Assembly (NCBI GenBank): GCA_938743325.2
Contig: OW568882.1
Span: 248,001-312,000, forward strand
Source: Pycnococcus provasolii
Lineage: Eukaryota > Chlorophyta > Pseudoscourfieldiophyceae > Pseudoscourfieldiales > Pycnococcaceae
Direction of reading: 5' to 3'
Length of the DNA: 64,000 nt
A program made the translations under genes and the position numbers. This document shows, piece after piece, positions 1 through 62,705 of this stretch; the first letter of the stretch is position 1; every line of letters begins with the position of its first letter. The notes under the pieces were generated by a model. It was not told the origin of the DNA. It made no database searches and worked only from the letters and a program-made list of their open reading frames with translations.

Positions 1-2510
1 TGCGCAAGCTCAAGCATGCGAACCGACGCGCTCAGCACGCGACAGTCCGCCGAGGTGAGGCGGTGCGAGATACCAACCACGTCCGTCGCGATCGGCGTAC
101 CTGACGCCTTCCTCGGCTGAGCCAAAGCGGGCGCGGAGCCTGTCGTAAGCACGCGTCCGCCGCGGCTTGCCAAGAGCGCGTCTGACTCGTGCAGGCCCGC
201 CGTCGCCGCGATGGTCCATCGCATCTCGTACAGGCACGTGGCGCCTGTGACAGGCTGCGTAACCTGCGATCCGCCTGCGGCGGTCGGTCGCGCGCCAATC
301 ACACGAGCATCGAGCTGATGGAGGTTCGCGAATGCGCCGCCTTCGCGATCGACGATCCAGTGGTTGCTGATCGCGGACGCATCGCTCGAAGACACGGCGC
401 GAGCCATGACCCACGCGTGCGTGTCCTGCGATCGACGCGCGATCGTGTATGCGCCGAGTGCCGCGGGCACGCGCGTCGCCGACTGCTCCGAGCTTGCAGT
501 AGCGGCGTACGCAGCCGCGCTCACCTGCATGGACGCGTCGAGCGTTGCCGGATGCACGAAGCATCCGCGACGTACGCCGACATCGTCGATCCACAGATGA
601 CCAGCCACGACCCCCGCGACGTCCGAGGGTCGACGGATACTCGTGAGCACGGCGAACGCCGGGCCGTACTGTAGTCCAGACGCCGCGACGCGCTCGTATG
701 CTCCCACCGCGCTAACTGGAGAACTCGCTCCCGCGCGACCTGCACTCACGTTCTCCAGCGATGGCACGATCGCCGCGTCGCGCGAAAGGCTGCGATGCTG
801 CGCGTAGCTGCCGCGGATGTGAGTCATGCGCGCCGAGGATGAGATGCTCACCGCGCTGTTGGCGCACGAAACGCTGCACGCGATCACCACGGACCTAAAC
901 GAGGCGTCCGACGGATCGGGAAGCGCGAGCGGCATCGGGATGCTCACGCCCGTGAGCGCGCACGGCGCCCCGCCGCGCAGCATCGCGCCGAAGGCTGCCG
1001 CCGTCTCGAAGAAGCCCGCGCCGGGGAACAGCGCCTGGCCTTGCACGCGGTGATCCCAGAGATAAGCGTGCATGTTGCGCCTCAGCGCGACCGCACCCTC
1101 CGCCGTGCCGTGAGCGGGCGCCGAAGCGCGACCAACGAGATGGTGCGGCTTCAGCACGATCCACAGCGACTCCATGCGCCATACGTAGCTCGACGAGTCG
1201 GCGGCGACGACGCGCGACGTCGTCGTCGAACTGGACACCTGCTCGCCGATGACGTGCGCGTTGGTGCCTTGGAACGCGAACGAGCTCACGCCTGAGGCCA
1301 CGCGCGTCGCGGAATCGCGCGCGAGCTGCGTCGCGGATTTCATGAAGGCGTACGCGGGCGTAGTGAGTACGCCGATCATGTGCGGGTTGACGGATGTCAG
1401 ATGCATCACCGGAGCGACCGACGTCGTGCGCAGGTCATGCACCACCTGAAGCAAGCCGACTGCGCCCGCGCCTGGCTCCGTGTGGCCGACGGCGGACTTC
1501 ACCGCCGACATGACGAGCGGCGATACGCGGCCCTTCGCCTGCACAAGCACGGCGAAAGAGCCGCCCACCTCGATCGGGTCGCCGAGCGGCGTACCGGTGC
1601 CGTGCATCTGCAGGTTGTGCACGCCGCTTGCCGGCATCGATGCCGACTGCAGCGCGATACGGATCGCGCGCTGCTGTGACGGGCCGTTCGGCGCGGTGAG
1701 TGCGCTCGAGCGCCCATCCTGGTTGACGGACGAGCCGGCAACGTGCACGATACTATCGTCGTGAGGCATCGTCGCGTCGTGTACTGTCGACATCTGCGTA
1801 CGAAGCACGCCGCACGACTCTCCGCGAACGTACCCGCTCGCCTTGGCGTCGAGCGTCTTGCACCGCCCGTCCGGGGCGAGCATGCCAGCACGATTGAACG
1901 TCTCAGCGTTCTGTGGAGTTAGCGTGAGGTTGACGCCGCACACGAGCGCGTCAGTCGACTGACCAGCAGCCATCGTCGTGCGCGCGATGTGCGCGACGAC
2001 GAGCGACGACGAGCACGCGGTATCGACGCTCACAGACGAGCCTTGCATGCCAAACGTGTACGACATCCGACCGCATGCGACGCTGAGCGCTCCTCCTGTT
2101 GAAACGTACGGTGTAATTTTTTCCATTGTTCCCAGCGCAATTTGGCTGTACTCTGCAACTGAGATTCCCACAGCAACTGCTGCGTCGCTGCTACGCAGGT
2201 CCGATGCGCCGCCGACCCCGCCGGCGGTGACCTCCCACGCGCGCAGAAGAAGCACGCGCTGCTGTCCGTCCATCTGCGAACACTCCGTCGTCGTGAGCCC
2301 GAACAGCTGGGTGTCGAACTGGTCCGCGTTGCGCAGATAGCTGCCGAACCGCGGCTTGAGCTCGAGGTCGCTCTCTGGACCTGCCTCGACGTCCCATCTC
2401 TCGTGCGGTACTTCGGTGATGGCGTCGACGAAGCCGCTCGACTGGAACAAGCTCGGAAGCAGGCTAGACACCGCAAGCACAGACATGCGACAAACGCCGT
2501 CTGACGAAGC
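1..2510 (-). other. PKS module M13: KS-DH, truncated by the window edge
   Basis: KS12 (1240-2510) has DTACSSS with Cys19379, QMHGTGTPLGDPIE, KSAVGHTEPGAG and FAFQGTNAH. DH (230-1150) keeps His19700 and Asp19871. The frame is open at base 1, so ER, KR, ACP and perhaps further modules lie to the left. Because the block 1-2089 is a near copy of 4933-7021 in M12, the next domain outside the window is probably an ER as well. Confidence 0.92.
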
Positions 2511-2735
2511 TGCCGCCGATGTCGCGAGGCCTCCTGCCGTCGCGGCATCGATCTCCTCTGCATCGTCGATGCTCGTGTAGAAGGCGCCATCGATGTAGTC
2601 GACCATCGCTGTCACGGACGGATAGTCGAACACCAGCGTGCCCGGCAGCTCGATGCCTACGGTCGTGTCGATCGCGTTCTTCAGCTCCACGGCGCCGAGC
2701 GAGTCGAGACCCGCCTCCATGAGTGGATCATTCGC
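1..2735 (-). repeat. KS-DH-ACP repeat, M13/M12 junction copy (open at left edge)
   Basis: Partner of 4933-7667. The copy is already in progress at base 1, so the repeat extends beyond the window. The diverged island here is about 2090-2184. Confidence 0.9.
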
Positions 2736-5700
2736 CTGCGCGTCCGGACCGACCACGCCGCGCACCACTTCCATCAGCTCGCGCTCGAGCTGCTGCTTGC
2801 GCTCTTCGGCGCCGAGGTGCACATGCTTGAGACCCGCCGCCTGCATCTTGGCGGCATCGCCAAGAGTGCCGGACGCATCGACCGCCTCGAGCAGGTACTC
2901 GAACTCAGACACGAAAGCGGGGACCGCAGGCATCTGCGCGAGGAACCGTGACCAGTCGAACGGGTTCGCTGTCACGACTGCGTGACCGCTAAGCTGCTTC
3001 AGCATGTGATGCAGCGCGCTCAGACCGTGATCCTCGTCCAGCGAGCCCATGCCCATGCGCTCGAGTCGAAGCGCCGTAGAGCGATCCTGCGATGCCATGC
3101 CGCCGCCGCTCCACGCGCCCCACTGGGCGCTCGTCGAAGCCACGCCGCTCGTCAGGCTGTGATGCGCGAAGCTGTCGAGCGCGGCATTCGCAGAGACGTA
3201 GTTCGCCTGCCCGCCGTTACCGAGCAGCGACGCGATCGACGAAAACAACACCGACGTGTCTACCGCGTGAGCCGCCAGCGACGCGCGCAGGTGCGCTGCG
3301 CCGCACACCTTCGGCGCGTGCACGGCCATTGTGCGTGACGCGGACTGGTTCAGCAGCATCGCATCGCGTAGCACGCCGCCGGCGTGCAGCACGCCCGTGG
3401 TGGGCGGATGCGTGCTCGCGCCCACGACCCACCGCGCCTCAGACGCCTGCGAGACGTCGCAGCGCGCGAGCTGCACCATGCACCGTCCCGCCGACGCCGC
3501 CGTCGCCGTCGCGTCTCGCGCGCGTCCGCTGCGGCTGACGAGCCACTCGTGCGCCGCGCCGTACTCGCGCAGCCAACCCGCCATCATCAGGCCGAGCATG
3601 CCGAGTCCGCCCGTCACGAGCCATGAGCCGTCGACACGGACTTGTGCGACAGATGGCACCTGCACCACCACCTTGCCGACGTGCTGCGCGCGCGCCATCA
3701 CGACGAACGCCTGTCTCGTGCGTCCGACCGTGTGAGACATCGAAGGCAGCGCACGCACGACGCCGCCACTCAGCGTCGACACGAGCGCGTCGAATGCCGC
3801 GCCGAGTACCGGCGGAGGCAGGAAGTCAACAGCCACCAGATGGAAGCTCACGTCACAGCGCTCGGCATGCACGCCGCGCGCCGTCCAGATGTCGCGCTTG
3901 CCGATCTCCACGAAGCCGCCGCACGCGCCGAGCGCGCTCAGAGATGCCGCGACCATGCCCGTCGATGTCAGCGAGTTGAGCACGTTCGTCACGCCCTCGC
4001 CCCTTGTGAGCGCGTGGATCTCGTCCGCGTACGCCGTGCGGCGCGTGTCGAGAGCATCGCACACGCCGCGATCGCGAAGCAGGGCGCGCTTGCGCGGTCC
4101 GCCCGCCGTGCCTACGACGTGCGCGCCGAGCGTGCGCAGCACCTCGAGCGCGGCGAGTCCGACTCCGCCGGACGTCGCCTGCACGAGTACGCGCGACTCC
4201 GGCGTGGCTTCTGTCGCGCGCGACAGCGCCATGTCGACCGTCACGAACACCGTCGGCGTCGTCGCCGCGGCGGAGAACGCAATCACGTCCGGCTTGCGTG
4301 CCGCAGCGTACACAGACGTGCGCGCGTGCGATCCCAGGCATCCGGGCGCCAGACCCAGCAGCGACTCGCCTGCATGGAATGCGCGAGGCGCCAGCGGCGA
4401 CACGGATACAGCCACGCCGGCGCAGTCGGCGCCGGGCGGACCCGGGTCGCCGGGGTACATGCCGAGCACGTTCAGTACGTCGCGGAAGTTGACTCCCACA
4501 GCCACCACGCGCAGTGTCATGGCGTCCGCGCGATCGGATACGCCCAGCGCGTCGAGCGCGTGCGCCTTGAGGCCCGTGAAGGCACCGCGAGGCATCGGCT
4601 CGAGCTGGAAGCGACGTACCGTCTCGTGCGCCTGTGCGTGTAGCAGTCTCGGTCGGAGCAGCGCGCCCGCGCGAGCCGCGGCGCCCTGCGCGTCGCCGAG
4701 GTCAGCCTTCGTCGTCGTCGGCGCCGTCGCGCCTGCGCTTGCGTCGACGTCGACGCCGCCGCACTGCACCTGCGGCAGCTCCGCCGCGGCTGTGCGTAAT
4801 ATACCCCACGCTGACGCGAGCGCGACGCCGGGCCACGTGCGCGCGGTGCCGGCTGCTGCACTGACTGCGGCAGGCGCGTGCGCGCCACGCGTGACGAGCT
4901 CGAAGCGGCGTACGCGGAGCATGCTCGCGCACTGCGCAAGCTCAAGCATGCGAACCGACGCGCTCAGCACGCGACAGTCCGCCGAGGTGAGGCGGTGCGA
5001 GATACCAACCACGTCCGTCGCGATCGGCGTACCTGACGCCTTCCTCGGCTGAGCCAAAGCGGGCGCGGAGCCTGTCGTAAGCACGCGTCCGCCGCGGCTT
5101 GCCAAGAGCGCGTCTGACTCGTGCAGGCCCGCCGTCGCCGCGATGGTCCATCGCATCTCGTACAGGCACGTGGCGCCTGTGACAGGCTGCGTAACCTGCG
5201 ATCCGCCTGCGGCGGTCGGTCGCGCGCCAATCACACGAGCATCGAGCTGATGGAGGTTCGCGAATGCGCCGCCTTCGCGATCGACGATCCAGTGGTTGCT
5301 GATCGCGGACGCATCGCTCGAAGACACGGCGCGAGCCATGACCCACGCGTGCGTGTCCTGCGATCGACGCGCGATCGTGTATGCGCCGAGTGCCGCGGGC
5401 ACGCGCGTCGCCGACTGCTCCGAGCTTGCAGTAGCGGCGTACGCAGCCGCGCTCACCTGCATGGACGCGTCGAGCGTTGCCGGATGCACGAAGCATCCGC
5501 GACGTACGCCGACATCGTCGATCCACAGATGACCAGCCACGACCCCCGCGACGTCCGAGGATCGACGGATACTCGTGAGCACGGCGAACGCCGGGCCGTA
5601 CTGTAGCCCAGACGCCGCGACGCGCTCGTATGCTCCCACCGCGCCAACCGGAGAACTCGCTCCCGCGCGACCTGCACTCACGTTCTCCAGCGAAGGCACG

Positions 5701-8700
5701 ATCGCCGCGTCGCGCGAAAGGCTGCGATGCTGCGCGTAGCTGCCGCGGATGTGAGTCATGCGCGCCGAGGATGAGATGCTCACCGCGCTGTTGGCGCACG
5801 AAACGCTGCACGCGATCACCACGGACCTAAACGAGGCGTCCGACGGATCGGGAAGCGCGAGCGGCATCGGGATGCTCACGCCCGTGAGCGCGCACGGCGC
5901 CCCGCCGCGCAGCATCGCGCCGAAGGCTGCCGCCGTCTCGAAGAAGCCCGCGCCGGGGAACAGCGCCTGGCCTTGCACGCGGTGATCCCAGAGATAAGCG
6001 TGCATGTTGCGCCTCAGCGCGACCGCACCCTCCGCCGTGCCGTGAGCGGGCGCCGAAGCGCGACCAACGAGATGGTGCGGCTTCAGCACGATCCACAGCG
6101 ACTCCGTGCGCCATACGTAGCTCGACGAGTCGGCGGCGACGACGCGCGACGTCGTCGTCGAACTGGACACCTGCTCGCCGATGACGTGCGCGTTGGTGCC
6201 TTGGAACGCGAACGAGCTCACGCCTGAGGCCACGCGCGTCGCGGAATCGCGCGCGAGCTGCGTCGCGGATTTCATGAAGGCGTACGCGGGCGTAGTGAGT
6301 ACGCCGATCATGTGCGGGTTGACGGATGTCAGATGCATCACCGGAGCGACCGACGTCGTGCGCAGGTCATGCACCACCTGAAGCAAGCCGACTGCACCCG
6401 CGCCTGGCTCCGTGTGGCCGACGGCGGACTTCGCCGCCGACATGACGAGCGGCGATACGCGGCCCTTCGCCTGCACAAGCACGGCGAAAGAGCCGCCCAC
6501 CTCGATCGGGTCGCCGAGCGGCGTACCGGTGCCGTGCATCTGCAGGTTGTGCACGCCGCTTGCCGGCATCGATGCCGACTGCAGCGCGATACGGATCGCG
6601 CGCTGCTGCGACGGGCCGTTCGGCGCGGTGAGTGCGCTCGAGCGCCCATCCTGGTTGACGGACGAGCCGGCAACATGCACGATATTATCGTCGTGAGGCA
6701 TCGTCGCGTCGTGTACTGTCGACATCTGCGTACGAAGCACGCCGCACGACTCTCCGCGAACGTACCCGCTCGCCTTGGCGTCGAGCGTCTTGCACCGCCC
6801 GTCCGAGGCGAGCATGCCAGCACGATTGAACGTCTCAGCGTTCTGTGGAGTTAGCGTGAGGTTGACGCCGCACACGAGCGCGTCAGTCGACTGACCAGCA
6901 GCCATCGTCGTGCGCGCGATGTGCGCGACGACGAGCGACGACGAGCACGCGGTATCAACGCTCACAGACGAGCCTTGCATGCCGAACGTGTACGATAGCC
7001 GACCGCATGCGACACTGAGCGCACTTCCCGTGGACATATATGCGGTGATCTGTGGCATGAAGTACGCGGCGATCTGCCCGTACTCTGCGGCCGATATGCC
7101 GACAGCAACCGTCGCGTCGCTGCTACGCAGGTCCGATGCGCCGCCGACCCCGCCGGCGGTGACCTCCCACGCGCGCAGAAGAAGCACGCGCTGCTGTGCG
7201 TCCATCTGCGAACACTCCGTCGTCGTGAGCCCGAACAGCTGGATGTCGAACTGGTCCGCGTTGCGCAGATAGCTGCCGAACCGCGGCTTGAGCTCGAGGT
7301 CGCTCTCTGGACCTGCCTCGACGTCCCATCTCTCGTGCGGTACTTCGGTGATGGCGTCGACGAAGCCGCTCGACTGGAACAAGCTCGGAAGCAGGCTAGA
7401 CACCGCAAGCACAGACATGCGACAAACGCCGTCTGACGAAGCTGCCGCCGATGTCGCGAGGCCTCCTGCCGTCGCGGCATCGATCTCCTCCGCATCGTCG
7501 ATGCTGCTCGTGTAGAAGGCGCCATCGATGTAGTCGACCATCGCTGTCACGGACGGATAGTCGAACACCAGCGTGCCCGGCAGCTCGATGCCTACGGCAG
7601 TGTCGATCGCGTTCTTCAGCTCCACGGCGCCGAGCGAGTCGAGCCCCGCCTCCATGAGTGGCTGATTTGGATCTACATCAGAACCAAGAATGCCTTCCAC
7701 GGCAGCCATGACTCTGCTCAATGATGAGATTTGCTGTGATCCAAGATTAAGACGCGTTGTCTGCGTTTTGCTATCTAAGGATGTCGCTGTATTGTGATCG
7801 CTGCTATGAACCACGATATTGATGTCACGCAATAGAGCAGGAGTCACTCGCATATTTTTGACGAAGTTTTCCCAGATGAAGGGATTCGCCGTAACAAGTG
7901 AACGAGAAGGAGTGGTACAACTGTGCGTTGACGAATCTTGGAGAATACCAAACAGTACTTGCAACCCACGATGCGCCTCGAGGGCACCCATCCCTCCCTT
8001 GACAGCACGGCGTATCACATCATCTGACGCCATACCTCCTCCTGCCCAGGCACCCCATTGGATGCTTCGAACTAACATACCCCTCGCGTCGAAGTGGAAT
8101 GAAGCCCCATCCAGATTGCCGTTCGCAGCGCTGTAGTTGCTCTGACCTCCTGAGCCAATTAACGCAGCCACTGACGAAAATAACACAGTATAGGCTCCTG
8201 GCACCGTACCAAATGAAAATGTGTTTATGTTGGCCAATCCTTCAACTTTCGGCGCCATCACGCGATTGAATCGCGACGCCGTCTGCTTCGCAAGAGCCAA
8301 ATCCATCAAAACACCCCCTGCGTGCATGATTCCAGTTGTGCCATACTTTCTTTCGCTAAGAGACAATGCATACTGAGCTTCGCTGCGATTGGCCATGTCA
8401 CACCGCTGTCCAATGAGCAAGCAGTGCTCGGAATGCGATCCCAGGCTCGCACCCCTGCCCGAGCGTCCCAGTATCACAATCTCCTTTGCGCTTGACACTA
8501 GATCCGTCCGAATCAAGTAGCCAAGACTTCCAAATCCGCCGGTGATCAGCACGCTAGGCACCTCGCCGTACGTACCACGAGGTACCTGCACCACCACCTT
8601 GCCGACGTGCTGCGCGCGCGCCATCACGACGAACGCCTGTCTCGTGCGTCCGACCGTGTGAGACATCGAAGGCAGCGCACGCACGACGCCGCCACTCAGC

Positions 8701-11700
8701 GTCGACACGAGCGCGTCGAATGCTGCGCCGAGTACCGGCGGAGGCAGGAAGTCAACAGCCACCAGATGGAAGCTCACGTCACAGCGCTCGGCATGCACGC
8801 CGCGCGCCGTCCAGATGTCGCGCTTGCCGATCTCCACGAAGCCGCCGCACGCGCCGAGCGCGCTCAGAGATGCCGCGACCATGCCCGTCGATGTCAGCGA
8901 GTTGAGCACGCTCGTCACGCCCTCGCCCCTTGTGAGCGCGTGGATCTCGTCCGCGTACGCCGTGCGGCGCGTGTCGAGCGCATCGCACACGCCGCGATCG
9001 CGAAGCAGGGCGCGCTTGCGCGGTCCGCCCGCCGTGCCTACGACGTGCGCGCCGAGCGTGCGCAGCACCTCGAGCGCGGCGAGTCCGACTCCGCCGGACG
9101 TCGCCTGCACGAGTACGCGCGACACCGGCGTGGCTTCTGTCGCGCGCGACAGCGCCATGTCGACCGTCACGAACACCGTCGGCGTCGTCGCCGCGGCGGA
9201 GAACGCAATCACGTCCGGCTTGCGTGCCGCAGCGTACACAGACGTGCGCGCGTGCGATCCCAGGCATCCGGGCGCCAGACCCAGCAGCGACTCGCCTGCA
9301 TGGAATGCGCGAGGCGCCAGCGGCGACACGGACACAGCCACGCCGGCGCAGTCGGCGCCGGGCGGACCCGGGTCGCCGGGGTACATGCCGAGCACGTTCA
9401 GCACGTCGCGGAAGTTGACTCCCACAGCCACCACGCGCAGCGTGAAGATATCAGCATGCTCGGCCAATGAATCATTTGCGAGCGTGAGATGTGAACTGAC
9501 TGCCACTATGGAGCTGATTGCACCCCGAGGCTGCGGAACAATGCTGAACGCGTTCTTAACTTCGAATGTTTCGGAGCTGGGATGCATTCGAGGAACCTCA
9601 ACAATACTGCCGATTGTTTTTGTGCCATAGTCTTCCGACTCGATTCTGCGAGGTTGTATATTGCGGAAAGATGTCGTGGGGAGCAGATGACTGCTCTGGT
9701 GAACATCGTTGGATGTGAATCCAGGCAAGATATGCCCCTCCTGCAGAGCAGTCCGCGATAGCGCCAGTACAGCACTAGCTCGTGGGTCCGTACATGCAAA
9801 TGGAATGCTATGGCCACCTTGAACACCCATCCTCGTATGAATGGTCTGCGTATGGAGATTAGACTGGAACACGCTCGCAGCTGAAAGGATGCAGCGTCTC
9901 GTCTCAAGAAGGGGATACAACGCAAGCAGAATACCTCCAGATTCAAATGCCTTCAGGTGGATCATTGCCGGCGAAACGTCGGTGTAGTCATTCCCACGAG
10001 AATGAAGAGCAGGCGCGTAGTCGGATGAAGCTTGCCAGTGGATCCTGTATGTGTACTGAGCAGACTCTGCTGCCTGCAAGGTCTGAACATTCATCTCTGT
10101 CTTGGTGTGTCCACCACCCACCACACGCGTTTCCAGGTCTTCCACGAAAGCGCTTGCACCAAGTGCGTGGCAGCTAAATGTAGACCCGCTTCCTTCATCA
10201 GCACTCGTTAGTGCCGCCGACGCAGTAACTGTAACTGTCGTGCAGCGACGAGTCACGCGGAATGCTTTCAAGCCTGCGGGAATGCGCGTGACAGAGTCCG
10301 TGGACTGAGTTGCTCCAGCTGCGGCTGCTAGAAGATGGATGGCACCATCCATGGCTGCCGGGTGCGCGAAGTACCCATCGCCGTGTGCTCGTGGACCCAC
10401 CCATGCGGTACCAAGAATGCACTGACTGATACGACGAAGGGACTGAAGTACTTGAAAGGCTGGTCCGTACTCGAGACCAGACCGTCGCATGCTTGGATAT
10501 GCAAAGGCAGCATCGAGGATAAGTTGAACTTCGCCATCCTTGCCGACGCGAGCCTTTGGACTTGGGATCGGAAATGCGCGCGCAGTCTCTGCGCTCGAAT
10601 CATGAGGTACTACCACTGCCATAAGAGATTTCGCTTGTGTTGACCCCCTGGCGCTGGAAACAATGCCAGAGCAGGTTGTCTGCTCTCTAGTATTGCGGAT
10701 GTGCCAATGGAAAGATCGCGTAAGCGTGTAGCATGCCATCTCGCGACTTGCTTTCCCAAGATCCGCCGGTAACATCAGCGGTGCCGGAAGGACGGCGTTT
10801 GCGATGAGACTTCGCGCGTCGTCATCATCGGTGCGCGATGGATGCAGGCTCCGCAGGGACGAGAACGCCATCTCAAAGGATGCGGTGGCTGGAAGGATGG
10901 ACTTGCCCGACACCTGATGGTCCCACAGATAGGACAGTGCAGGCGTACGACGAATATTGATGCCCTCAACGCGCAGAATTGTCGATGTGTCTGCCACACT
11001 TACAGCTCGAGCCGTCTGCAGTAGTACGTGGCCTTGTACGTGCGCGTACGCGCGCATTTTCACGGCAGCACTGCGCAGAAGAAGAGTAGCTCGCGACGAC
11101 CCACATTCCGGAACTGCGGTGGGATTTTGGAGAACAGCGTGTGCATTGCATCCGCTCATGCCAAATGAGCTGCAGCTTGCAAGTGTGCTCGAGGGATCGG
11201 AATCGGTGTTCTGAGCGGCACCTGCAGCCATGGGAATCACGGTGTATCGCGATGTCGAAGAAAGGGCGGTGGAAACATACGAGTTCACAGATCGGAGGTG
11301 GAGCACAGGAGGCACCGCAGCGCCAGACAGGTAATTCGCGGCAAATATGAGCGTCGCAATGCCAGCGGTACCCTCCGTGTGACCTTGCATCGTCTTAACC
11401 GCTCCAACCACGAGCGGTTGCACAGAGGAGCTATTAGATCGTCCAGGTGATCGAATTGCACTCCCGAGCACCTTAAGTGCTCCGCGCGTCTCAATCGGGT
11501 CACCGAGCGCGGTTCCAGTTCCATGCGCAGAAAGCATATCCACTGGTCGCGTCGTGTCGGCGTCGATGAGAGCGCGGCGAATCAGCGCCTCCTGCGAAGG
11601 ACCATGAGGCGCTGTCAGGGCGCTTGAACGCCCATCTTGATTTGCACACGATCCAGCAATGATGAATGCGGCCGAATGCGGCCGTTGCGGGTCATTCTCC

Positions 11701-47700: not shown

Positions 47701-50700
47701 CAGTGTGCGAGACTCGACTTTGACGCGGACAGCACCAATGCGCGCGCGCGATCGTCAGAAAGCAGAACGGCGTATGCCGCGCCTACCTCGATCGGGTCGC
47801 CGAGTGCCGTGCCGGTGCCGTGCATCTGCAGGCTCCCGACATCGCGTGCATGCCACGTTCCGTCGAACACAGAAACGATAGCACGCTGCTGCGCAGGTCC
47901 ATTGGGAGCGGTGAGCGCGCTCGAGCGTCCGTCTTGGTTCACAGCGCACGCTCGCAGAGCGACCGCCGCCGTGCTCGCGTCAGTCGTCGACGCGGCGGCA
48001 CGTCCATCCATGGCGTCGAGCGCGACGATGTTGCATGCTTCACCTCTGACGTATCCATCTGCGGCGGCATCGAGTGTCTTGCACCGTCCGTCGGGAGCGA
48101 GCATTCCTGCGGTGCTGAATGTGAGCGTCGTGTACGGCAAAGAGGTGGTATTCACGCCGCCAGCCATTCCACTTTCGCCATAGCGCTTGAGAATCGAAGC
48201 CGCTACAAGCGATGACGAGCATGCTGTATCGATGCTAATTGCGGGGCCCTGCAGATTGAAGGCGTACGATACTCGTCCGCTTGCGACGCTCAAGGCGGCG
48301 GATGTTGCCGAAAACGACGATACTTCCGTAGCATATGTCAGTAGCACACCATTGATATGTTCCGTCCAAGCAATGCCAATGCTGACAGTGCGCATTTGCT
48401 GATCCGTCGCTGCCGACGACGAACGCAACACATCGCGACCAAACGTCAACAGCATGCGCTGCTGCGGATCCATCAGAGTCCCCTCGCCCGTTGATACGGC
48501 GAACGCGGTTCCGTCGAATGAAGCAAGACCCTCCAAAAATGACCCGAAGCGCGCCGGCATCGCCGCAACGTCGCCGCCGCGCGCCGAAGAGTCCACGTCC
48601 CAGTGGTCGAGTGGTACGACGCCAACGACGTCCGTTCCCACGGCGCCGCGTGCGTTCAGAGCTGTCGTTCCGGCAGTCGCAACGAGCGACATGGTGGCAC
48701 TTTCGCCTCCCACCTTTGACGACTCTGCGATCGCAGACGATGCTGCTGCCACCGCATCTGCGGGCACCAGTCCGTCAAGTGCCAACTCACATACGAACGC
48801 CGCAATCGAGCTCACCGATGGATAGTCGAAGATCAGAGTGCCCGGTAGCTGCATGCCCACACCTGAGCTAACGGCGTTGCGCAGCTCCACCGCGCCCAGC
48901 GAGTCTAAGCCCGCGGCCATCAGCGGCTCGTGCGTGCTTACTTCGCTGCCGAGCACGGCGTGCACGGCGCGCATCACGTGTCCCTCGAAGTGCGCCTGGC
49001 GCGCACTAGCATCCATCGCCAGCAGGCGGTTCACCTCGTCGCTTCGACTGGATGTCGTCACCGCCGCCGATGACGATGCTATCACCGATCGCGCCGACTC
49101 CGCGTGCGCGTGCGCTTCCGCATCCGCCTGCTCAAGCAGCGACGCTGACAGGAGGTCGCGGGCGCCAGCGAATGCCTCGACGAAGCGTCCCCACACGAAC
49201 GGACTCACGGACACGTTCGCTAGCGGTGGGTACCGCTGCTGCTGAGCGTTGCGCACCAGCGCGCCCAGCGCACTCACACCATGTGATGGCATCACCATGC
49301 CCAGACCGAGACGCTCAAGACGTTTGCGGATACCCACATCATCAGCCATGCCGCCTCCGCCCCAGGCACCCCACTGTACACTCAGCGTGCATGCGCCGCT
49401 CGTCTGAGACGCCTTCGCCGCCTCGTCAAGCACGGCATTCGCGGCAGAGTAGTTCGCCTGCCCGCTGATCCCAAGCAGCGCGCTGATGGACGAGTACAGG
49501 ATGCTGCATCCCAAGGGGCTCGCGCCGAACGCGCGCTCGATGTGTTCCCAGCCACACACCTTCGGTGCGAAGACGCGCTGCGTGCGCTGCGCGGACTGGT
49601 TGGCAAGAAGCGCGTCTTGCAGCACGCCACCGGCGTGCAGCACCGCGCTCGCCGCCGACGCCGAATGAGCAAAGCTCCCAAGCAAGGCACAGCCAGCTTC
49701 CGCCGAACGCGAGACGTCCGCGCGCATCGCTTCCACCTGAGCCTGCACACGCGCGTCGTGCATGATGAAGCTGGCATCGCCTTCGACGGCCGCGGCGGTG
49801 GCGGCGACGCGTCCGCTGCGTGACAGCAGTTGGATGCGACGCACGCCGTGCTCGGTAGCCCAGCGCGCCGTAAGCAAGCCGAGGGCGCCGAGTCCGCCCG
49901 TGATGGAAAGACGCGTGTCGTGTGCACCGGAGGCTGCGGGGCCGCCGATGGGAAGGTCGTTCAGGCTCACGCGCAGGACCACCTTGCCGACGTGCTTCGA
50001 CTGCGACATTTGCCGAAATGCTGCTTCAATCTGCCGGATGTCATGTTGGATGTTGACAAGCGATTTTATCGACATGTCCTGAATCCATGAGGTTACTTCA
50101 CACATTGCCTCTCGGACGATGTGAAGCGACGCAAAGTCAATCGCAACGACGTTGTATGCGATACGTTCGCGCTCTGCAGCGACGAGTTGGTGAGACCAAA
50201 TATCACGCTTGCCGATCTCGACGAAGGAGTCGCTAGTCAATGACAGGGATGCGGCAATCATGCCAGGTGAGGTCAAGGAATTGAGCGTCGTCGTGGCGCA
50301 GAAGTGCTTTGCTCCAAGCTTTGCCTGTGCGGTAATTACGTCGCTTACGAACGATGTGCTGCGCGACGACATGGCGGCATGGCCCATCTGACGCACGATG
50401 CTTCTCTTGGTGCTCGACCCAGCAGTTCCGTAAACTTTTGCACTAGCGTCGCGAAGAGCCGCGATTTGCATCGCTGCGATTCCGATTCCACCGGATGCGG
50501 CGTGTACGAGAAGCGTTCCCACACCGTTGCGCCGTAGCGATAGGCACACAGTTGCCGCAACAGTTGGGAGGGTCGCAGCCTCGACATGGGGAATGCTCAT
50601 CGGCTTAATGCTCACGCCAGACTCGGTGGTGGCAGTAATGCCAGATCCCATGCATCCCATCAAAAGCCCGTACACTGCATCGCCGATGTGTAGAGCTGCT

Positions 50701-53700
50701 GCTGACGACTTCGTGGGCAGTGAGATTGTCGATGAAACGCTTGAAACGATTCCGGATACATCGCTTCCTGGCACACCAGGATCGCCCGGATACATGCCAA
50801 GTACGTTGAGAACATCGCGAAAATTGACGCCAATGGCCATGATCTGAAGACTCATCGTCGATGTCATTCCATCGCCCGTCGTACCACCGCGATTATCCGC
50901 AACCTTTCGAAGCTTCAAACCTGACAGTGAGCCGCGTGGCAAAGGCACGACCGAAAATGGCTGTGCGAAGACTCTGCTGTTGTAACGGCTCTCAGCCACG
51001 AATGACGTGTGCGAAATCACATTTCCGGTGCACGAGGCTGTCGACGTCGTCGCGCTGGTGGTGGAGCCGTTTGTCGCAATAGCAGAATGCAGTCGAGTTT
51101 CCGATGTAGTCGGCGCCACGCACATGATGGCAGACGAAAACGGCGCCTCCCTCAACTCAGACCTCATTGTCCTTGCTAGTCCCAGAAGACACGACTGCTG
51201 TCGTCGTGCCTTGCTTATCGTCATCACAGGTGAGGCCTCCGGCTGCTGGTTGGCGTACAATACGACATTCACCATGCTTTCGAATGACGCGTACTGTGCC
51301 AGTGAAATGCCCGGAAGGATCGTGCGTAGCTCATCGCGCGATGACGGCAGTCCATATCCACGTCGCGTTGAAGTCCACGACGCATCAATGCTGGCCAGCC
51401 GGCACGCATCTCCAATTGCCGCATTCGTTGACACCCAGCTTAATCGGTAGACGATGGAAGGAATCACGAGATTTGATGGCACTCGTTCTGCGTCAAAAGA
51501 AGTACGCGTTCCCGCGGAAACCTCCTTGATCGCCAAGTCCGATATGATCAAATCGGTGGAGTGCCCGAGCAAACGGTGTGAGGAGACAACATCGTCGTCA
51601 CTACTCGTCCGCGCAGACACCACTGCATGAACGGACGAAGACGAAGACGCCTCGCCACGAGAAGCAGCGACCCCGCGGATGACGACATGGCATGCAAGCC
51701 CAACTGGGATGCGTACAGACGAAGTGCGGGCGCCCGCGAGAGCCAAATGAAGAACGGCATCCAAGGTGGCGGGGTGAACATCGCACGCGTAATCTCGAGC
51801 GTTTGATTTCGAAGAGCGAATCTCCGCCATGAGCCTGGAAAGAGGCGTGGGCTTCGACATCGATGATCCGTCGTCGAGTGTCGCGAAGACGCGGTCCAGT
51901 AGCTGAAATTCGCAGCCGTAGCCAAGCTTACGATCTCTAAGCGAACGATACACCTCGCCCGGCGCAATGGGAACCCCACTGGCGGTGGCCATTTCCGCGC
52001 GGTGCGCCTCCAGCACGGTTGCTAGTGAAGCAAGCTCTTGCTGCCGCGAATGCTCTTTCGGCTGAAGGTTGCCACCGTGTGCGCGGTTATCGTGCAACCG
52101 CTGCTGGATTCCACGCATGTGAAGTCCCCTATCCGTGCGAATGACGAACGATTGATCGGTCCTTTGCTCGTTCCCAAAAGTTACGCGAAATCCACGAGAG
52201 CTCATCGACGAATCCATGATGAGGGCCATGGGAATGGAGACATTGGTTGTGCATCCTAGATGCGAGCTGCTTCCATCGAGCAGCTGCGCGCGCGCAGACG
52301 CGACAGCCTCCAGAAAGCCAGCAGCAGGAAAGACTGCGCGTCCGTCAAAGGCATGGTCACGCATGTACTGCAGTCTTGCCGCCGCCAACCCGGAGGATGT
52401 CACTCCCGCAAGCGCGACACACATATCGAATGACATCTGTTGAGGCAGCTGCTGTTGACTGAAAACAAACGGCCCGTTTGAAAGAGCGTACGCCATGGGA
52501 CGCAGCCAGAATCGCGCTCCCATTCGCCGCAAACGCTTGAGGCTCGAGACTTGCGGGTATGCCGAATCACCACGATGTTGCTCCTCCAGAGCCGACGTGA
52601 GCGAAGAGGAGGCCACGATCGCATGCGCGTTTACGCCGGACATGCCAAAAGAGCTTGTTGACGACGCCATTTCTCCAGACGTTGCTTGACGGCGTCCATG
52701 CGGCCCAGCCTCTCGTGGGATGCTGAGCTCCGCGGTTGTTCCGCTCGAATGGACCGCCCAATCGGATTCCACAGCGCCGGCGACGAATGGGTTGAGGACG
52801 CGCAGTGTTGGCATTGCGAAGGCAAAGCCTCCACGACGCATACTAGCTGTGGCAAAGATAAGTCCAGTCACGCCGGCGGCACCCTCGGTGTGGCCGTAGA
52901 TAGATTTGTTCGAGCCCAGTGTTAAGGCCTGTCCCGAGCGAGCGTACGCTTTGCCCAGCGCACTCACCTCGATCGGGTCGCCAAGGGATGTGCCAGTGCC
53001 ATGCACGGCGATGTACTCGACGGCGGGCTGAACATCTCCAGCGCCACGACGTGCATCTCGCATCGCCGCATCAATTAGCAGCTTCTGCGATGGCCCGTGC
53101 GGCGCGGTGAGGCTGCTGGATCGTCCGTCCTGATTCACGTGTGTGCCGAGCAGGCGAGTTGAAATTCCACGCGGCGACGTGCTGTCATCGGCACGACTAA
53201 TGTGCAGACAAGTCACAGCCTCGCCTCGCCCGTATCCGTCAGCGGACGCGTCGTACGACTTGCATCGACCATCAGCAGAAAGTGCGGAAAGAGCGCAGAT
53301 GCTCGCGGACGTACCTACGCTCAGCATGAGATTCACACCCGTCGCGTACGCACCACCGCCGTCCACCTCATCGACACTCTGCACGGCGTTGCGTGCCAGG
53401 TGTACCGCGACGAGAGAGCTCGAGCACGCCGTGTCAACGGAAGTGCACGGTCCCGACAGACCAAAGGTGAACGAGATTCGACCTACGAGCGCCCAGTAGG
53501 TACCCCCGAGGAAGGCGTAGGCACTTGCCACGAATGTATCGGGTGCGAGCATGGACATCTCGCTCCACATCAGCCCCACGTAAACGCCAGCATGCGATGG
53601 GGTCAGATCATCGAAAGATGCGCATGCGCCACCTTCAATCGTGCTATGCATGGCATCAAGCGTGCCATTCAAGACGTGCCTCGCCTGTGGGTCAAGCATG

Positions 53701-56700
53701 CTCGTTTCGCTGGGAGACAGTCGGTACACTGCGGGCGCAAATTCGAACACGTCTTCCACATACGACGCCAGCGCAACATACGTCCGAAGCTTGCCTGGTT
53801 CGCCCTTTTCGCCGCCGAAGTACACGTCATTATCCCAGCGATCGAGCGGGGTGACGTCCGTGGCATCACGCGACGAGGCTGAGAAGTTGCCAACGTGATC
53901 GAGCGAGCTAATGCCCTGGCCGTAGAAGCATGATGTCCCAGTGATTGCAGCCTCGACGCGACGTCGCGCACCATCGTCGACGGAGGATGATGTGTTTAGC
54001 ATGTCGCTGCTATCGGCGGCTGAGATCCCGCCCGCCTTTTCGACGAGCGTGCTGTGAACGAACTGTGCCATGGCACGCGCAGTTGGGAAGTCGAACATGA
54101 AGGTCGCGGGTAAAGCAACGGAGAATTCCGAAGCAAGCGAGTTGCGCAGCTCAATGGCTCCGAGGGAGTCGATGCCCGACTCCATGAGCGGATCTTGCGG
54201 CCCAATCTCACAATCAGCACTGTCGTCGTCATCCACCATTGCCGATGCGATGCGAAGCAGACGCGACTCAATGTCGGCGAGGGGAGCAATCTTGCCAACA
54301 GCAGTGGCAGCGGCAGCAGCTGCTGCTGCTGCTGCTGCAGACACGGTGGCGCTGGAAGAACCTGTCTTCGCCGTCGTCGAGGAATGCATCGCAACTACCT
54401 CGGAGTACATCTCTGCCGTTACCTCCACGATGTTCCTCGCGGCAAAGGTCTTCCAGGAAAAAGCACTTGCGGTAAAGCTCGCGGGCGATTCGCTTGTAGA
54501 TGCACTGCAGGCGAACACGGCACTATGAAGCACTCGCAGACCCTGCAGCTGGCTCAGCACACCCAATCCGAGCCTCTCAAAGCGCTTCAGGATATCGACA
54601 CCTTGACCACGTGCAGCCATTCCACCATCGCTCCATGCGCCCCAACGCACACTCCTTGCACGCAGACCTTGGAGCTGCAGATGATTCGCGGTGGCATCTA
54701 GCAAGGAATTTGCCGTGCAGTAGTTCGCCTGGCCCGGCGTGCCCACGAGTGCGACGACTGATGAAAACGCCATTAGACCAGCGAGGCCTTGTGGCGCACT
54801 CGTACGGAGGATACGGTCGAGCGCTCCTGTCTTGGCAGCGAATACATCGCGAGCGCCATTCTCGTATCGCTGGTTTGGGAGCAGGGCATCGCGCAGCACG
54901 CCACTCGCGTGAAATATGGCAGGATGGCGCAGACGGCTTGGTGCTGGAATCGACTGAGCCACAACGGCGGAGGCATCGGAGGTTGACGCCACATCACACC
55001 TGGCGATGGAGACCATCTCTCGCATGCCTTCAGCGCTTGCGATGCTCTCTCGTCGTCCTCGTCCAGATCGCGACAAAAGGAGCGCCTCTTTCAGTCCTGG
55101 CACGGCAAGGCTAAGCCAAACCTTGACAAGATGCCCCAATGCGCCGAGGCCTCCCGTGATCACTGCTGTCCGCAGGACTTCTTGTCCGCTCAACGACGAC
55201 ACACCAGACGCTCTGAGATTTGCAGTCGCCATCAAGTGCGCAAGCCGTGGCACAAGCTCAACACCATCGTACAAGGCACTGATACGCGATTTGCGCATGG
55301 AGAGCGGCGTCTTCTCTAGCGCGGTGGCTGCGGCTGCACGTGAGTCCACATCGCACGCCTCGAAGCTGTCGTACTCCACCTCGCCGATCAATGCGGGGAT
55401 GATTGCCTGCACCACGCGCGAGGCATGGTCCGTTATGGTAGTCGCTGAGTCCAACACCGGAGCAAGTCTCGCCATCGAGGCCACACCGCTCGTCGTCCGA
55501 AGAGACCATCGTGATAGCGGCGACGCGGACTGCGCCATGGAGATCACGCTAGCGAACGTCCGTAATGCTGTTCCCTGCCGCTTCAAATCCGATGGTAACA
55601 TCGCCAAACGCTGGTCGACAAGCAACTGAGAACTGCAAGATGTTGCCGTGTTGGACACGGAGGACGGCAGGAAGAAGAATCCAACCGAGGACAAAGCTCG
55701 CCAGTTCATCGCGTACGAGATTTGCGCCGCTGTGTGCTTCTTCGTTTTCGTCGCGGAACCTTGCTGCAGCTCCTTTGCGGTGAGACTGCTGAGTTCCACG
55801 TGCTCGCCGCGAGCTGCAGCATGACAGTCTTGCGGCGACGCATCGACTCGGCCGCCCGATGAAGAGGAAAACGCAGCATCTTCCGTCATGAGCATATGGT
55901 GCGTGCATTTTCCATCGCCTTCAAATCTCGCAAGGATGCGCCTGCAGTTGCTGCTGCTAACGAGAGCTCCTCGGCTCGACTTTGCGCACCGGAAAGCGCC
56001 AATCGCATATGGCACGTGAACAGACGATTCCACTCCGTTCGCCACGGAACAAGCGTGCAGCATCATACCCTGCTGCAGACACGTGTCGAGGATAGCAGGA
56101 TGAACGAGATAGCCATCTTCTGCTCGATCAAGCGTTGGAACGATGGCATGAATCGAGTCCAACGATGAAGAAGAGGCTTCGCTGCCATCATTCCTCCTCA
56201 CGAGAAGAACGTTCATCATCATCTGAAAAGCTGGTCCGTATGCGAGACCTACATCCTTCAGCCTATCGTAGGCGTTTTGGGCAGACATGGGTTCACGTCG
56301 ACGGTGTCGAAGTTCAAAAGACAATGACGCCTCATCACCAACAACACTAGCGACTGTGCGATGCCGTGGCAGCGATGGCGACCAGGATGATGATGATAGT
56401 ACGACGCCAATGGCAGCACCCACCATGTGCTTCGTCAAGCCTTGACTTGACTCGATTGCAAATTGGCCCTTGCCAAGGAAAAGCGCACACTGCATCCGCG
56501 AACTGTCGTCTTGGATGTCAAATGCGGCACTGGAACGAAGTAGGAGTGGCGCGGGAATTGAGATACCTTCAAGCAACCCACCCGTGCTGCTAGTCGCCGC
56601 CGTCGTCGTCGTTATGCAAGCATCCTGCCATGCACTCGCAAGCTCAAGAAAAGCCGCTGCGGGCACGATCGCACGTCCAGAAACCACGTGATCGAGAAGG

Positions 56701-59700
56701 TAGCTGAGAATGCCACCACATTTTGTGACGGGACAGGTGGTGACAACAGCAGCTGCTGGCATAACGGAGGAGATTGAGGCAGGAACAGAAGACAGCTGAA
56801 ACTTGTGCAGCATGCTTCGGTGCACAGCCATAGGTACGACGTAGAGACGCTTGCATCGGAAACTCAGGCAGCCGTTTCCCATTGCACAGTCTGTATTCTG
56901 ATCCCACGTTCGGTCCACGATCAGAGCGTGCGCGTTCGTCCCCATAAAGGCAAACGAGCTCGTGCCACTGATCAGTGCATCGTTCCTTACGTCACCGCGG
57001 CGCTCAATCATCGGATGCGCAGCTTGCTCCCGAGGAAGTACAGCCAGTGGAAGCACTGCAAGGTGAACGTTGACGTGGCGCAGATGCGACACAGGCGCGA
57101 GCATGGAGGCACTTGTCGAGGCGATCTGCTGTGCAAGGCCGAGCATGCCCGCAGCTGGCTCTCCGTGTCCCATGACGGATTTGAGCGCGGCGATCGCAAG
57201 CACGCTACTACTACTGCCGTCGCGAACCGATTGTATCACGCGTGCGGCGGCACCAAACTCGATCGGATCGCCAAGCGGTGTGCCTGTGCCGTGCATCTGG
57301 AGCACGTGGTGGTGGTGGTTTCCACCTGCGTCTCCGAGTGCCGCCTGAAGCACCTTTTGTTGGCTTGGTCCATGTGGCGCGGTGAGAGCGCTCGATCGGC
57401 CATCCTGGTTCACAGATGATCCCACCATGGCGCGTGTCGTTGTCATCTCCGCGTCGTCGTCGCCTTCGAGGATGCTGCGAATGTAAATCGTCGCGCAGCC
57501 TTCCGCACGAACGTACCCGTCGGCATCTGCATCGAGCGCCTTGCATCGCCCGGATATGGATAGCATGCCCGCGGAGTTGTACATGCGTGAAATCTCGGGT
57601 GTTAGAAACACGTTCACGCCGTGCACGATAGCTGACAGCTGTCGTGCCTTTGCAAGATGTGCACAAACCAGACTTGACGAGCATGCCGTGTCCACGGCAA
57701 GGGCAGGTCCATGCGCGCCGAATGTGAAAGCCAGGCGTCCAGCCGCGACGGACATAGCAATGCCCGTCGACGAAAAGGGTGATGATGCCAGCGACGACGA
57801 CTGCCCATCAGGCGGCAAAAGGTTGGCGTACGTCGTCCAAGACAGTCCAACGTACATCCCAAGCACATCCAGACTGTCGTCGTCCAATTCGTCTGAGTAC
57901 AGCATGTGCGCGGTGTTTGACAGGCACATGCGCTGCTGCGGGTCGACGAGTCGAGCCTCCTGATCGCCCAGGTGGAATGCTGATGCGTCCATCCTGTCAA
58001 CGTCGTCGACGGTAGCAGCAAATTGCGGCATTAAGACGGCCGTGCTGTTGTGTGATGGAGATAGTGCCCAGCGATCCACGGCGACGGTCGTGATGACGTC
58101 ACCGATTGCAGGTGACGACGTGTGCATGTGCCTCGGTGCAATCAACTTCGCGTTGGCAATCTCCATCATCGTTGTCAGAGAAGACGCCACGAATGCCACC
58201 GGCGACGTCGATGATGGCGGTGCCGTCGTGCTCGTCGTCGTCAGAAATCGCGCGAGTGCCTCGGGCGTGGGATGATCGAAGATCGTCGTAGCAGGTAGCG
58301 CCCCACCAGACAGCTCCAGGCGCTGCGCCACCTCCGCGTGAAAGCGAATGGACGTTCGCGAGTCCACACCCACTGACATGAACGGGCTGTCCTCACCGAC
58401 AGCGACGTTTGGTGCAGCAAGGCTGGCGGCAACATCCAGTATGATGTGAAGCGTCTGCAAGTACGACAGATTCGTGTAGTTGACGATATCTCCAGTCACT
58501 ACTGGTGATGACGACGACGAGGTTGTCGTCGAGGCAGCTGCGTTGCGAATGGAAATGAGGTGCGCGAGATCGTCTGGCATCTCACGACGCACCGTCGACG
58601 CAATGGTCCCACGCTCCGCCGGAAGGCCAGTCGCATCGTCAATGCCACCAGGCCCGAAGTCAACGAACTCCGCCAGCATCATCGTCGACGACACGTCTTC
58701 TTCTTCTTGCTCCTCTTCAATCGCCATGACCACCAGAGCAAACGTCGCATCCAGGGCCGCTGGCCAGTCAACGGACAGGAGGCACTGCTCGTCGAGGAAA
58801 CGACGCACGATTGCGTCGGTGTCGCCGCTGAGATTGTACAAACTTCCATTATGTGCCGAGATGACACGACAGGAAGGAGGAGTGGATGGCTGTTGGAGGC
58901 GGATGCCACGCGATCGAAGAATTTCCACCACCTTTGCCGGAACTGAGCTGCATATGCTCGAGGCGTGGAAGGGCACAGTCACGTCCATCAGCGACGTGCG
59001 CACGTCACCGCCAACGCCTTCAAGAGAGTCGTGAAGTGTGCCAATCTCATCAGCCGTGCCCGACACGACATGCAAATTGTCACCATTGCGTACGGTGATC
59101 GACGCTGAAGACGATCGCTGGCTGAGGGCATGCTGAAGCTGTGTGTACGACATGCCACGCACAAGCAACATGTGCGGCTGACGCAGCTTTCGTGGCGACG
59201 ACGGTGCTCGCAGAGATGAGAACGACGAAGAGAGGTCGGAGGATGCGACGGATCCGTCCTCGTCATCATCGTCATCATTGTTGTTGCTGTCTATGATGAC
59301 CGCGTCGTCGTCGTTGTTGTCGTCGTCGTTCACGACATCGTTTTCAGCAAACGAGTGGAAGCTGGTTGTCGAAGACGAATCATCATCATCACCACGTAGG
59401 CGCGTGATCGTAGATGAGGACGACAATGGCGTGGAAAAGAACTCTTGCTCCTGCTGCTGTTGATGGTTGTTGTTGTCGTCGTCATCTGCATCCGACGTCG
59501 CATCAAGCAGGCATACCGATAGCCAAAGCAGCGTGCGCACAATCGTGTCCGCACACAAGAGCAAGCTATCTTCCGATTCGCCTCCGAGCGCCACGCACAG
59601 AGCCGCCGCGGTACCCAAGCTGTGTCCCACTGCCGCAAATATGGGAGGGCGCTGTTCGACGATGTAGCGCGCGATGGACGTCACGAAGCCAAGCACGACG

Positions 59701-60149: not shown

Positions 60150-60504
60150 CGCTACACGTGTTCACGAACACAACTCAAGCACAAAGAATGACGAAAAGAA
60201 TGTTTTTTCTTGGAAGAAGGATCTGGAACCCTGGCACGTGGGGTTCCATCGATCGCCGGAAACCCCAATCAGAAAATGCGCCTCTTACTCATCCCCGAAT
60301 CGAAACAAATCACCTCTTGGAAATATCAAATACAGTATCTGCTTTCCCGCAGCCAGGTTCCATTCAAAATCCAATAACTGCACGCCACTTCCGAACCGCC
60401 CAGCTTGCGAATCATCATCATCATGGTGCGTACACAACACGATGAGGAGTGTGCATGCGCGAGCGTGGTAAACGTGCTGGCCAGCAACGCTGCAGTACCA
60501 CGAC
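60150..60504. promoter_or_regulatory. Divergent intergenic region between the PKS and the sulfotransferase-like gene
   Basis: These 355 bases separate the two divergent start codons, so they should hold both promoters and 5' UTRs. I see no convincing TATA box, no Shine-Dalgarno sequence before the PKS ATG (the bases before it read cacgtgtagcg) and no long open frame that fits either protein. The close head-to-head spacing suggests shared regulation; this is inferred from layout only. Confidence 0.45.
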
Positions 60505-62175: not shown

Positions 62176-62223
62176 AAAGTTTTAGTTGTTGTGTGTGATG
62201 ACACTTGTTTGTCATGTTTTGTT

Positions 62224-62228
62224 TGTAA
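62224..62228 (+). terminator. Candidate TGTAA polyadenylation signal of the ST-TE gene
   Basis: TGTAA lies about 50 bases after the TAA stop at 62173-62175, in an AT-rich stretch. TGTAA is the usual polyadenylation signal of green algae. Two more copies occur at 62617-62621 and 62639-62643. Confidence 0.45.
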
Positions 62229-62705
62229 TTGTTAGAACAACAACTATTACCATAAACTCTTTGTTAACCTCCCAGCTCTGCGTCGTTCCCTCATGTTTCT
62301 TGGCAAACTCTGCAAGCCATGCGAGCGAGACTGCTCGAAAGACGGGCGAGGAGGACCTTGAAGGTTCAGGCGCCTGACTTATCAAGTTCCTTGACTCATC
62401 ATCATCATTGTCAAAGTCAAGCCTCGTTGCCTTGACTGGCAGCACAGCTGTGGTCGTTGATGTTGACGTTGACGCCGCGCATCCCCTGGCATGCCTAAAA
62501 GCTTAAAAGATATCACTCAAGGAGTCAAGGGTGATGCGACGTACTTTCGGAGGCCGAAGAGGAAAAAGGCCACTGGGAGTGTGGGATGGGTGCAAGCAAC
62601 CAAGTACAACAGTACTTGTAACAATAAAATATTTGTTTTGTAAGCAACCAAGTTCAAAAGTTATTGTTAAAGAAAGCAGTCAATGCAAATAGTTAGAATA
62701 TGTCG

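Follow-up and report, generated by a model that had tools for sequence, protein, structure and literature searches.

The stretch considered here is a 64,000-nucleotide window of the green alga Pycnococcus provasolii (C22:248001-312000, on the 681 kb contig OW568882.1, here C22, of a genome of 32.3 Mb in 46 contigs). It raises the question of whether a minus-strand reading frame that fills most of it is one gene for one protein, and what such a protein would make. The frame opens with an ATG at window position 60149 and stays open for 20,049 codons up to the left edge of the window (3..60149). With the left flank added, it closes with a TAA at C22:237401, which gives an unbroken open reading frame (ORF) of 70.7 kb encoding 23,582 amino acids (aa) with a calculated mass of 2,472,530 Da (2.47 MDa). 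The window edge cuts the gene, and 3,533 residues lie beyond it. An earlier sequence-only reading had described a single frame of more than 60 kb, still open at the edge, for a megasynthase of at least 20,049 residues, and this was borne out. The gene encodes polyketide synthase (PKS) domains, and it is likely a single intact gene of a prasinophyte green alga for a modular PKS that works as an assembly line.

The open frame is real and far beyond chance. Read in the other five frames, this DNA has 440-752 stops per frame, and single-base shuffles (n=20) contain 729 stops on average, with a longest open run of 275 codons. With the codon usage of a giant PKS gene on contig C5 of the same genome as the standard, the frame has the top coding score of the six in every one of the 117 windows (200 codons each). 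Upstream of the ATG an in-frame stop is the fifth codon before it, with no ATG between.

Domain order and host

Pfam was run at E up to 0.01 on 16 protein pieces covering all of the protein except module M13 (residues 19181-20830, about 1,650 aa, near-identical to M12), which was mapped by models built from the protein's own domains and by DNA identity to M12. The own-domain models map 65 domains: one acyltransferase (AT), 16 carriers (acyl carrier protein, ACP), 13 ketosynthases (KS), 10 dehydratases (DH), eight enoylreductases (ER), 12 ketoreductases (KR), and one each of condensation domain (C), AMP-ligase, terminal KS (KS0), sulfotransferase (ST) and tail domain. These models match by construction, and they place the domains rather than prove them. 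Sixteen carriers with 13 KS domains and KS0 amount to several KS-ACP modules in one protein.

Thirteen of the 14 KS domains keep the active-site Cys (DTACS or DSACS), HGTGT and the second His. The DH His is present in 10 of the 13 aligned modules and absent from M3, M5 and M6. The sequence-only reading had placed all catalytic residues of 14 modules in one frame; the single frame without a stop stands, but three of the 13 DH regions lack the catalytic His and the last KS lacks the Cys and the first His. The last module, M14, is 93% identical to M12 over residues 1-651 (to the middle of the DH) and at most 36% identical beyond. It has a KR, no ER match and a chimeric DH, and it may leave the beta-hydroxyl that the ST would need.

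There is no Acyl_transf_1 match in the 16 scanned pieces, and the sole AT-type match is the N-terminal AT-like domain (Pfam SAT, 9.5e-9), which stands with a PP-binding match (1.4e-8). The genome has four Acyl_transf_1 matches over the cut-off. One lies in a frame on C29 that also bears a KS match; the other three, in frames of 376-639 aa without a KS match, are candidates for free-standing ATs, one of which may be the plastid FabD.

The host assignment comes from light-harvesting complex (LHC) proteins. One LHC protein matches Lhca-type chains in the PDB. A protein of a 12-copy LHC family matches 9vfj_11 best (3.9e-86), then 7yca_P (3.3e-81), 9uc6_A (1.1e-79) and 7yca_Q (5.7e-79), and its best match to a chain printed as Lhcb is 3.5e-31. 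The fused LHC 9vfj_11 is taken here to be from Euglena. 7YCA is an Ostreococcus tauri complex with prasinophyte-specific Lhcp (PMC10097422). Taken together with the small genome, these matches point to a prasinophyte host, in agreement with the green-algal origin that the sequence-only reading had considered. The Lhcp-type antenna gene has 12 equal-score places on C31, of which the two that were read are identical; they form two clusters of six (C31:133072-142609 and C31:360395-366434) in both orientations.

Chain release, the M7 module and the proposed product

The terminal KS0, which lies outside the window, reads DTASS for DTACS and SGLGE for HGTGT (MEASGLGE, DTASSSA). KS0 is followed by a Sulfotransfer_3 domain (Pfam). 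Against PDB sequences, the last 600 residues match 4gbm (CurM Sulfotransferase, 1.1e-39) and 4gox (Polyketide synthase, 9.8e-37), the next match being no better than 0.52, and both alignments span PRSGS and RHPY. We take 4gox to be the ST of an olefin synthase (OLS). In CurM and OLS the ST sulfates the beta-hydroxyl, and a thioesterase (TE) then frees the chain, which sheds CO2 and sulfate and ends in a terminal alkene (PMC3903477). A CurM-type ST offers concrete, testable chemistry for a terminus described only as hydrolase-like in related prasinophyte PKSs. No report of such a domain in a prasinophyte PKS was found among the titles and abstract openings searched, in which the subscription literature is thinly covered. 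An ST has been reported in a PKS of Emiliania (PMC7073580), and a search of viral contigs for the ST domain found nothing.

From this domain order a pathway can be proposed. The loading AT would charge the first ACP with a starter, and the other modules would obtain their malonyl units from free-standing ATs. The chain would pass once along M1 to M6, being left with an alkene by M1, saturated by M2 and M4, with a hydroxyl by M3 and M5 and with a keto group by M6. The condensation, ligase and carrier domains of M7 would then join an acid, activated by the module's own ligase, as an amide or ester. M8 to M13 would add a saturated stretch of about 12 carbons, and M14 would leave a beta-hydroxyl (its DH being chimeric) or an enoyl group. 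The ST would sulfate the beta-hydroxyl of M14 as in CurM and OLS, and a TE acting in trans would release the chain by decarboxylation, leaving a terminal alkene; another possibility is that the product departs as a sulfate ester. Taken alone, the alkene ending is put forward tentatively, as possible rather than probable.

Several points count against this scheme. No PDB chain matches the loading AT up to E 0.1. The NCBIfam matches of this domain, weak and below their cut-offs, are to MdcH (malonate decarboxylase epsilon, 1.9e-9) and FabD (8e-5), so malonyl units might be what it handles. In M14 the first DH motif is kept; the second-motif patterns found none there, but also missed M1 and M11. 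The ST matches the nodulation protein NoeE below the NCBIfam cut-off. Neither Pfam (up to E 0.05) nor NCBIfam (up to 0.001) gives a match for the last 227 residues. With no TE recognised downstream of the ST, the protein does not by itself contain the full CurM route. A homologue of this last domain occurs in a second giant PKS of the genome, on contig C30 (38 bits, 8e-14 against a single sequence), where it stands behind an intact TE and overlaps a weak match, below cut-off, to PF01210 (NAD-dependent glycerol-3-phosphate dehydrogenase N-terminus, E 0.026). The alignment of the last domain with the true TE of the C30 giant scores -2.4 bits.

By eye, the last domain is TE-like with GKGRFG in place of GxSxG; GKGRFG also fits the nucleotide-binding GxGxxG. 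The suggestion that the tail is a TE with a lost serine is weakened, since it has no family match and the C30 giant carries a separate intact TE before the homologous domain.

The alkene ending has in its favour that the two strong PDB matches are to STs known from decarboxylative termination (for 4gox, presumably) and that the last module is of a kind able to leave a beta-hydroxyl. The tail may nevertheless make no alkene: the sulfate would stay on the product, or the ST would be inactive and KS0 would pass the chain to a separate release enzyme. The absence of a recognised TE behind the ST fits this alternative, as do the proposals made elsewhere that terminal KS0 domains serve in release or transfer (PMC4661987). 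It is a serious possibility, though short of probable.

The M7 module was first read as an amino-acid module. It has a C domain with intact HHxxxD (HHIVSD at residue 9378), an AMP-binding domain and carrier domains, as would be expected of an ordinary nonribosomal peptide synthetase (NRPS) module that inserts an alpha-amino acid. The ligase suggests otherwise. At E up to 1e-20, 44 of 45 PDB sequences match it, and these are CoA, acyl-ACP or aryl-AMP ligases, the last including the stand-alone NRPS starter ligases EntE and PchD; the remaining sequence, Txo2, matches on the C domain. The best 25 of 96 NCBIfam matches are likewise acyl-CoA synthetases and their kin. By eye, the place where the amino-acid-binding Asp would be expected reads His. 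The first reading of M7 is weakened by the PDB and NCBIfam matches; an alpha-amino acid is not assured as the substrate, and an ordinary NRPS module is rather unlikely here.

The pathway assumes that the whole frame becomes one protein. The DNA frame could be real and the cell could still make several shorter proteins, through internal promoters, splicing or proteolysis, that work as a complex. Shelest et al. raised such a possibility for algal PKSs (PMC4661987), and introns seem to be present in this genome, where an LHC match on C31 falls in two pieces (C31:367451-367522 and 367980-368369). On the other hand, the 70.7 kb have no in-frame stop and the best coding frame in every window scored, and the domains found run continuously in frame. 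A set of shorter proteins is improbable, and a single protein remains preferred.

Repeats within and around the gene

The gene contains long near-identical blocks. Coding positions 52483-59387 share 98.5% identity with 57418-64319, and M3 over most of its length is 99.7% identical to M5. An ER-KR segment of about 2 kb has 98-100% DNA identity in core windows (about 99%) among M8, M9, M10, M12 and M13, and M11 shares a shorter part of it. The first 700 codons of the same modules (KS, DH) are 33-57% identical in 100-codon windows, the recent pair M12/M13 excepted, and the switch from uniform ER-KR to diverged KS/DH is abrupt. Had module duplication acted alone, the KS and DH would have come with the ER-KR segment; the pattern is therefore most simply explained by gene conversion or domain replacement. 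Module duplication with gene conversion would let the gene grow and stay uniform. Concerted evolution is well known in bacterial PKSs, whose KS domains have been speculated to be less free to convert (PMC4256081), and module duplication has been described in algal PKSs (PMC4661987).

The five full ER-KR copies have 22 synonymous columns among 36 variable ones (expected non-synonymous fraction 0.73; p 2e-5), and M12/M13 have 14 synonymous and 10 non-synonymous columns (p 0.001). Since the variable columns are mostly synonymous, the ER-KR copies appear to have been kept working; that the test is a simple column count tempers this point. The difference between M3 and M5 sits mainly in one block surrounding the KS active-site Cys (331 bp in M3, 349 bp in M5), with near-identical flanks on either side, and a blastn search of the gene found no donor for this block. 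Antisense ORFs of 333-387 aa in the window were rejected as genes; several recur opposite the homogenised ER-KR segments, as is expected of a repeated GC-rich stretch.

An inverted repeat brackets the gene. C22:308489-312839 is an inverted copy of C22:234730-239087, 99.63% identical over 4,359 columns, and two of the 16 differing columns are in the coding part. The final 1,687 bp of the giant ORF lie in the left arm together with downstream DNA, and the right arm starts 339 bp beyond the ATG. The outer end of the right arm is TAGGGTTAGGGTTA, a telomere-like TTAGGG junction. Contig C1 has TTAGGG repeats at its end and also in its interior; the genome has 3,806 overlapping matches to four TTAGGG units, and many of those listed, which are on C1 only, are interior to it. 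Past the right arm come two short segments that correspond to C22:231365-231727, inverted in the same way. They are split by an insertion that has exact 242-bp direct repeats and an ORF that is copia-like by eye (C22:313069-315056). Our reading is that a longer inverted duplication came first, which would have lost about 3 kb, been sealed with telomere-like DNA and later received a retroelement insertion.

Since one arm includes the gene's 3' end, an inversion between the arms would rebuild an intact gene. This suggests a megagene to which a flip is neutral: recombination between the arms would invert the 69.4-kb core, change its strand and neighbourhood, and rebuild the complete gene with its 3' end and outer upstream context, and the same activity would keep the ER-KR segments uniform while the KS active-site blocks diversify. 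The assembly holds one orientation of the core only, and the idea as a whole is a long shot. No inverted repeat of at least 300 bp was found at the other seven of seven PKS loci, with about 0.2-8 kb per side covered and one gene running off its stretch. No report of an inverted repeat around such a gene was met in the titles and abstract openings searched, which were not aimed at the repeat and cover subscription papers thinly. The ST near the end and the near-perfect inverted repeat of the gene's own tail are unusual features. Together with the repeat, the uniform ER-KR segments beside diverged KS, DH and ACP domains make this gene a case for how such genes grow and stay in frame.

It is very doubtful that near-identical repeats have led the assembly to a partly wrong module number, or that the inverted-repeat arm is a misjoin of two haplotypes: blocks of 98.5-99.7% identity and a 99.63% inverted repeat are hard to assemble, but the copies differ, mostly by synonymous changes, the arms differ at 16 columns, the right arm has its own telomere-like junction and a different flank, and contig C22 is 681 kb long.

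Table 1. Features of the giant PKS locus, in positions of the 64,000-nucleotide window
Feature	Position	Strand	Basis or remark
Giant PKS ORF	1..60149	-	residues 1 to about 20,049 of 23,582; ends outside the window
Loading part: acyltransferase-like domain (GHSLG), SAT-like, and ACP	58200..60149	-	Pfam, motif
M1 KS-DH-KR-ACP	54120..58199	-	Pfam, own-domain models, active sites
M2 KS-DH-ER-KR-ACP	48840..54119	-	Pfam, own-domain models, active sites
M3 KS-(DH region without catalytic His)-KR-ACP	44760..48839	-	Pfam, own-domain models, active sites
M3 block around the KS active-site Cys differing from M5	48120..48450	-	alignment
M4 KS-DH-ER-KR-ACP	39540..44759	-	Pfam, own-domain models, active sites
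M5 KS-(DH region without catalytic His)-KR-ACP; near-identical copy of M3	35520..39539	-	Pfam, active sites, DNA identity
M5 block corresponding to the M3 block	38826..39174	-	alignment
M6 KS-(degenerate DH-like region)-ACP; KR not found	32550..35519	-	Pfam, own-domain models, active sites
M7 condensation domain (HHIVSD), AMP-ligase resembling acyl-CoA synthetases, two carrier domains	27630..32549	-	Pfam, PDB, NCBIfam
M8 KS-DH-ER-KR-ACP	22740..27629	-	Pfam, own-domain models, active sites
Homogenised ER-KR segment of M8	23104..25060	-	DNA identity
M9 KS-DH-ER-KR-ACP	17820..22739	-	Pfam, own-domain models, active sites
Homogenised ER-KR segment of M9	18134..20107	-	DNA identity
M10 KS-DH-ER-KR-ACP	12570..17819	-	Pfam, own-domain models, active sites
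Homogenised ER-KR segment of M10	13072..15027	-	DNA identity
M11 KS-DH-ER-KR-ACP	7530..12569	-	Pfam, own-domain models, active sites
Shorter part of the ER-KR segment in M11	8584..9443	-	DNA identity
M12 KS-DH-ER-KR-ACP; starts the near-identical run (M12, M13, first half of M14)	2610..7529	-	Pfam, DNA identity
Homogenised ER-KR segment of M12	2933..4906	-	DNA identity
M13 first part (KS-DH)	1..2609	-	own-domain models, DNA identity to M12
Rest of M13 (ER-KR-ACP), M14 (KS-DH-KR-ACP), tail (KS0-sulfotransferase-tail domain)	left of window	-	M14 and tail: Pfam, own-domain models
Right arm of the inverted repeat	60489..64000 (to C22:312839, window-equivalent 64839)	.	left arm C22:234730-239087 outside the window
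556-aa ORF, second truncated copy of the giant tail, starting inside the ST after the PRSGS loop	60505..62175	+	sequence comparison

Other loci and known giant synthases

The genome has two further giant PKS frames, at C30:13615-65130 (17,171 codons) and C5:1056928-1098435 (13,835 codons). The C30 giant carries some four module copies that are nearly identical (13.7 kb align at 99.6% to the same sequence shifted by one unit) and ends with a KS (HANGS), an ACP, a TE and an extra domain. An open frame at C40:9988-18003 looks like rearranged pieces of it. Roughly between residues 4080 and 6230 the C5 giant includes an HMG-CoA synthase along with a pair of enoyl-CoA hydratase domains, which look like a beta-branching set in one polypeptide, and C2:394456-402932 is a partial copy (8.5 kb, 98.2%) of its start. 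In a tree of 31 KS domains from the three giants of this genome, the three terminal KS domains fall together with support of 81/90, though KS0 drew a long-branch warning. The tree leaves most other relations, and 13 of its 28 inner branches, open.

Two other observations were made. C8:308000-312000 encodes a RuBisCO-large-like protein (PF00016, 75.9 bits) in a 583-aa ORF, the C-terminal part of which is cupin-like by eye. At about 243.4-254 kb of C2 the small-subunit rRNA gene seems to carry insertions, perhaps, by eye, group I introns.

The sequence-only reading had named titin and the haptophyte giant PKSs as the only known proteins of this size and held that the protein, if from a green alga, would extend giant PKSs to another lineage. 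Neither view is supported. Shelest et al. (2015) described MDa-range, mostly trans-AT PKSs with up to 14 KS domains in most sequenced chlorophytes, their functions being mostly enigmatic at that time (PMC4661987). In a 2019 survey of 144-145 species the three heaviest proteins are all PKSs, of 22,244 aa (Volvox), 21,004 aa (Chlamydomonas) and 18,193 aa (Ostreococcus lucimarinus) (PMC6681478). The giant PKS here is about 6% longer than the largest protein of that survey, the comparison being with that survey only. It belongs to an already known kind, the green-algal giant PKSs, and is a complete, contiguous new example.

Compared by description only, the protein closely fits the account in PMC4661987. 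Like OluPKS3, MicPKS2 and OtaPKS1 (PMC4661987), it is multimodular, its modules mostly lack an AT, and near-identical modules are repeated. OluPKS3 has 14 KS domains and possibly a central C domain (PMC4661987); the protein here has 14 KS domains counting KS0, and a central C domain. Unlike in these three PKSs, a ligase stands behind the C domain here. The change of the first active-site His to Ser in the terminal KS is common to the described prasinophyte PKSs (PMC4661987) and KS0. In the terminal-KS group of OluPKS3, MicPKS2 and OtaPKS1 the Cys is displaced or lost, shifted for example in DCASASG, and the KS precedes an IPR027417 domain (PMC4661987). Here KS0 has DTASS and precedes Sulfotransfer_3. 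We take IPR027417 to be the P-loop NTPase entry. The PKS1 proteins of Chlamydomonas and Volvox, at 21,004 and 22,244 aa, are also giant modular green-algal PKSs (PMC6681478); their terminal KS reads HANGT (PMC4661987), like HANGS of the C30 giant, and is of a different terminal type from that of this gene. A Chlamydomonas type I PKS mutant has zygospores impaired in the formation of a durable wall (PMC11808291).

Two systems outside the green algae complete the comparison. Like CurM and the cyanobacterial OLS, the giant PKS has a C-terminal ST after the last reducing module, the CurM ST being its best PDB match. Unlike them, it lacks a recognisable TE, carries no AT in its extension modules, has many more modules, and places a KS0 after the last ACP, ahead of the ST. 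The single PKZILLA proteins of Prymnesium parvum are reportedly larger than the giant here. PKZILLA-1 and PKZILLA-2 are also giant algal multimodular PKSs, with 56 modules in both together, but they differ in being from a haptophyte and in making a polyether (PMC12300183).

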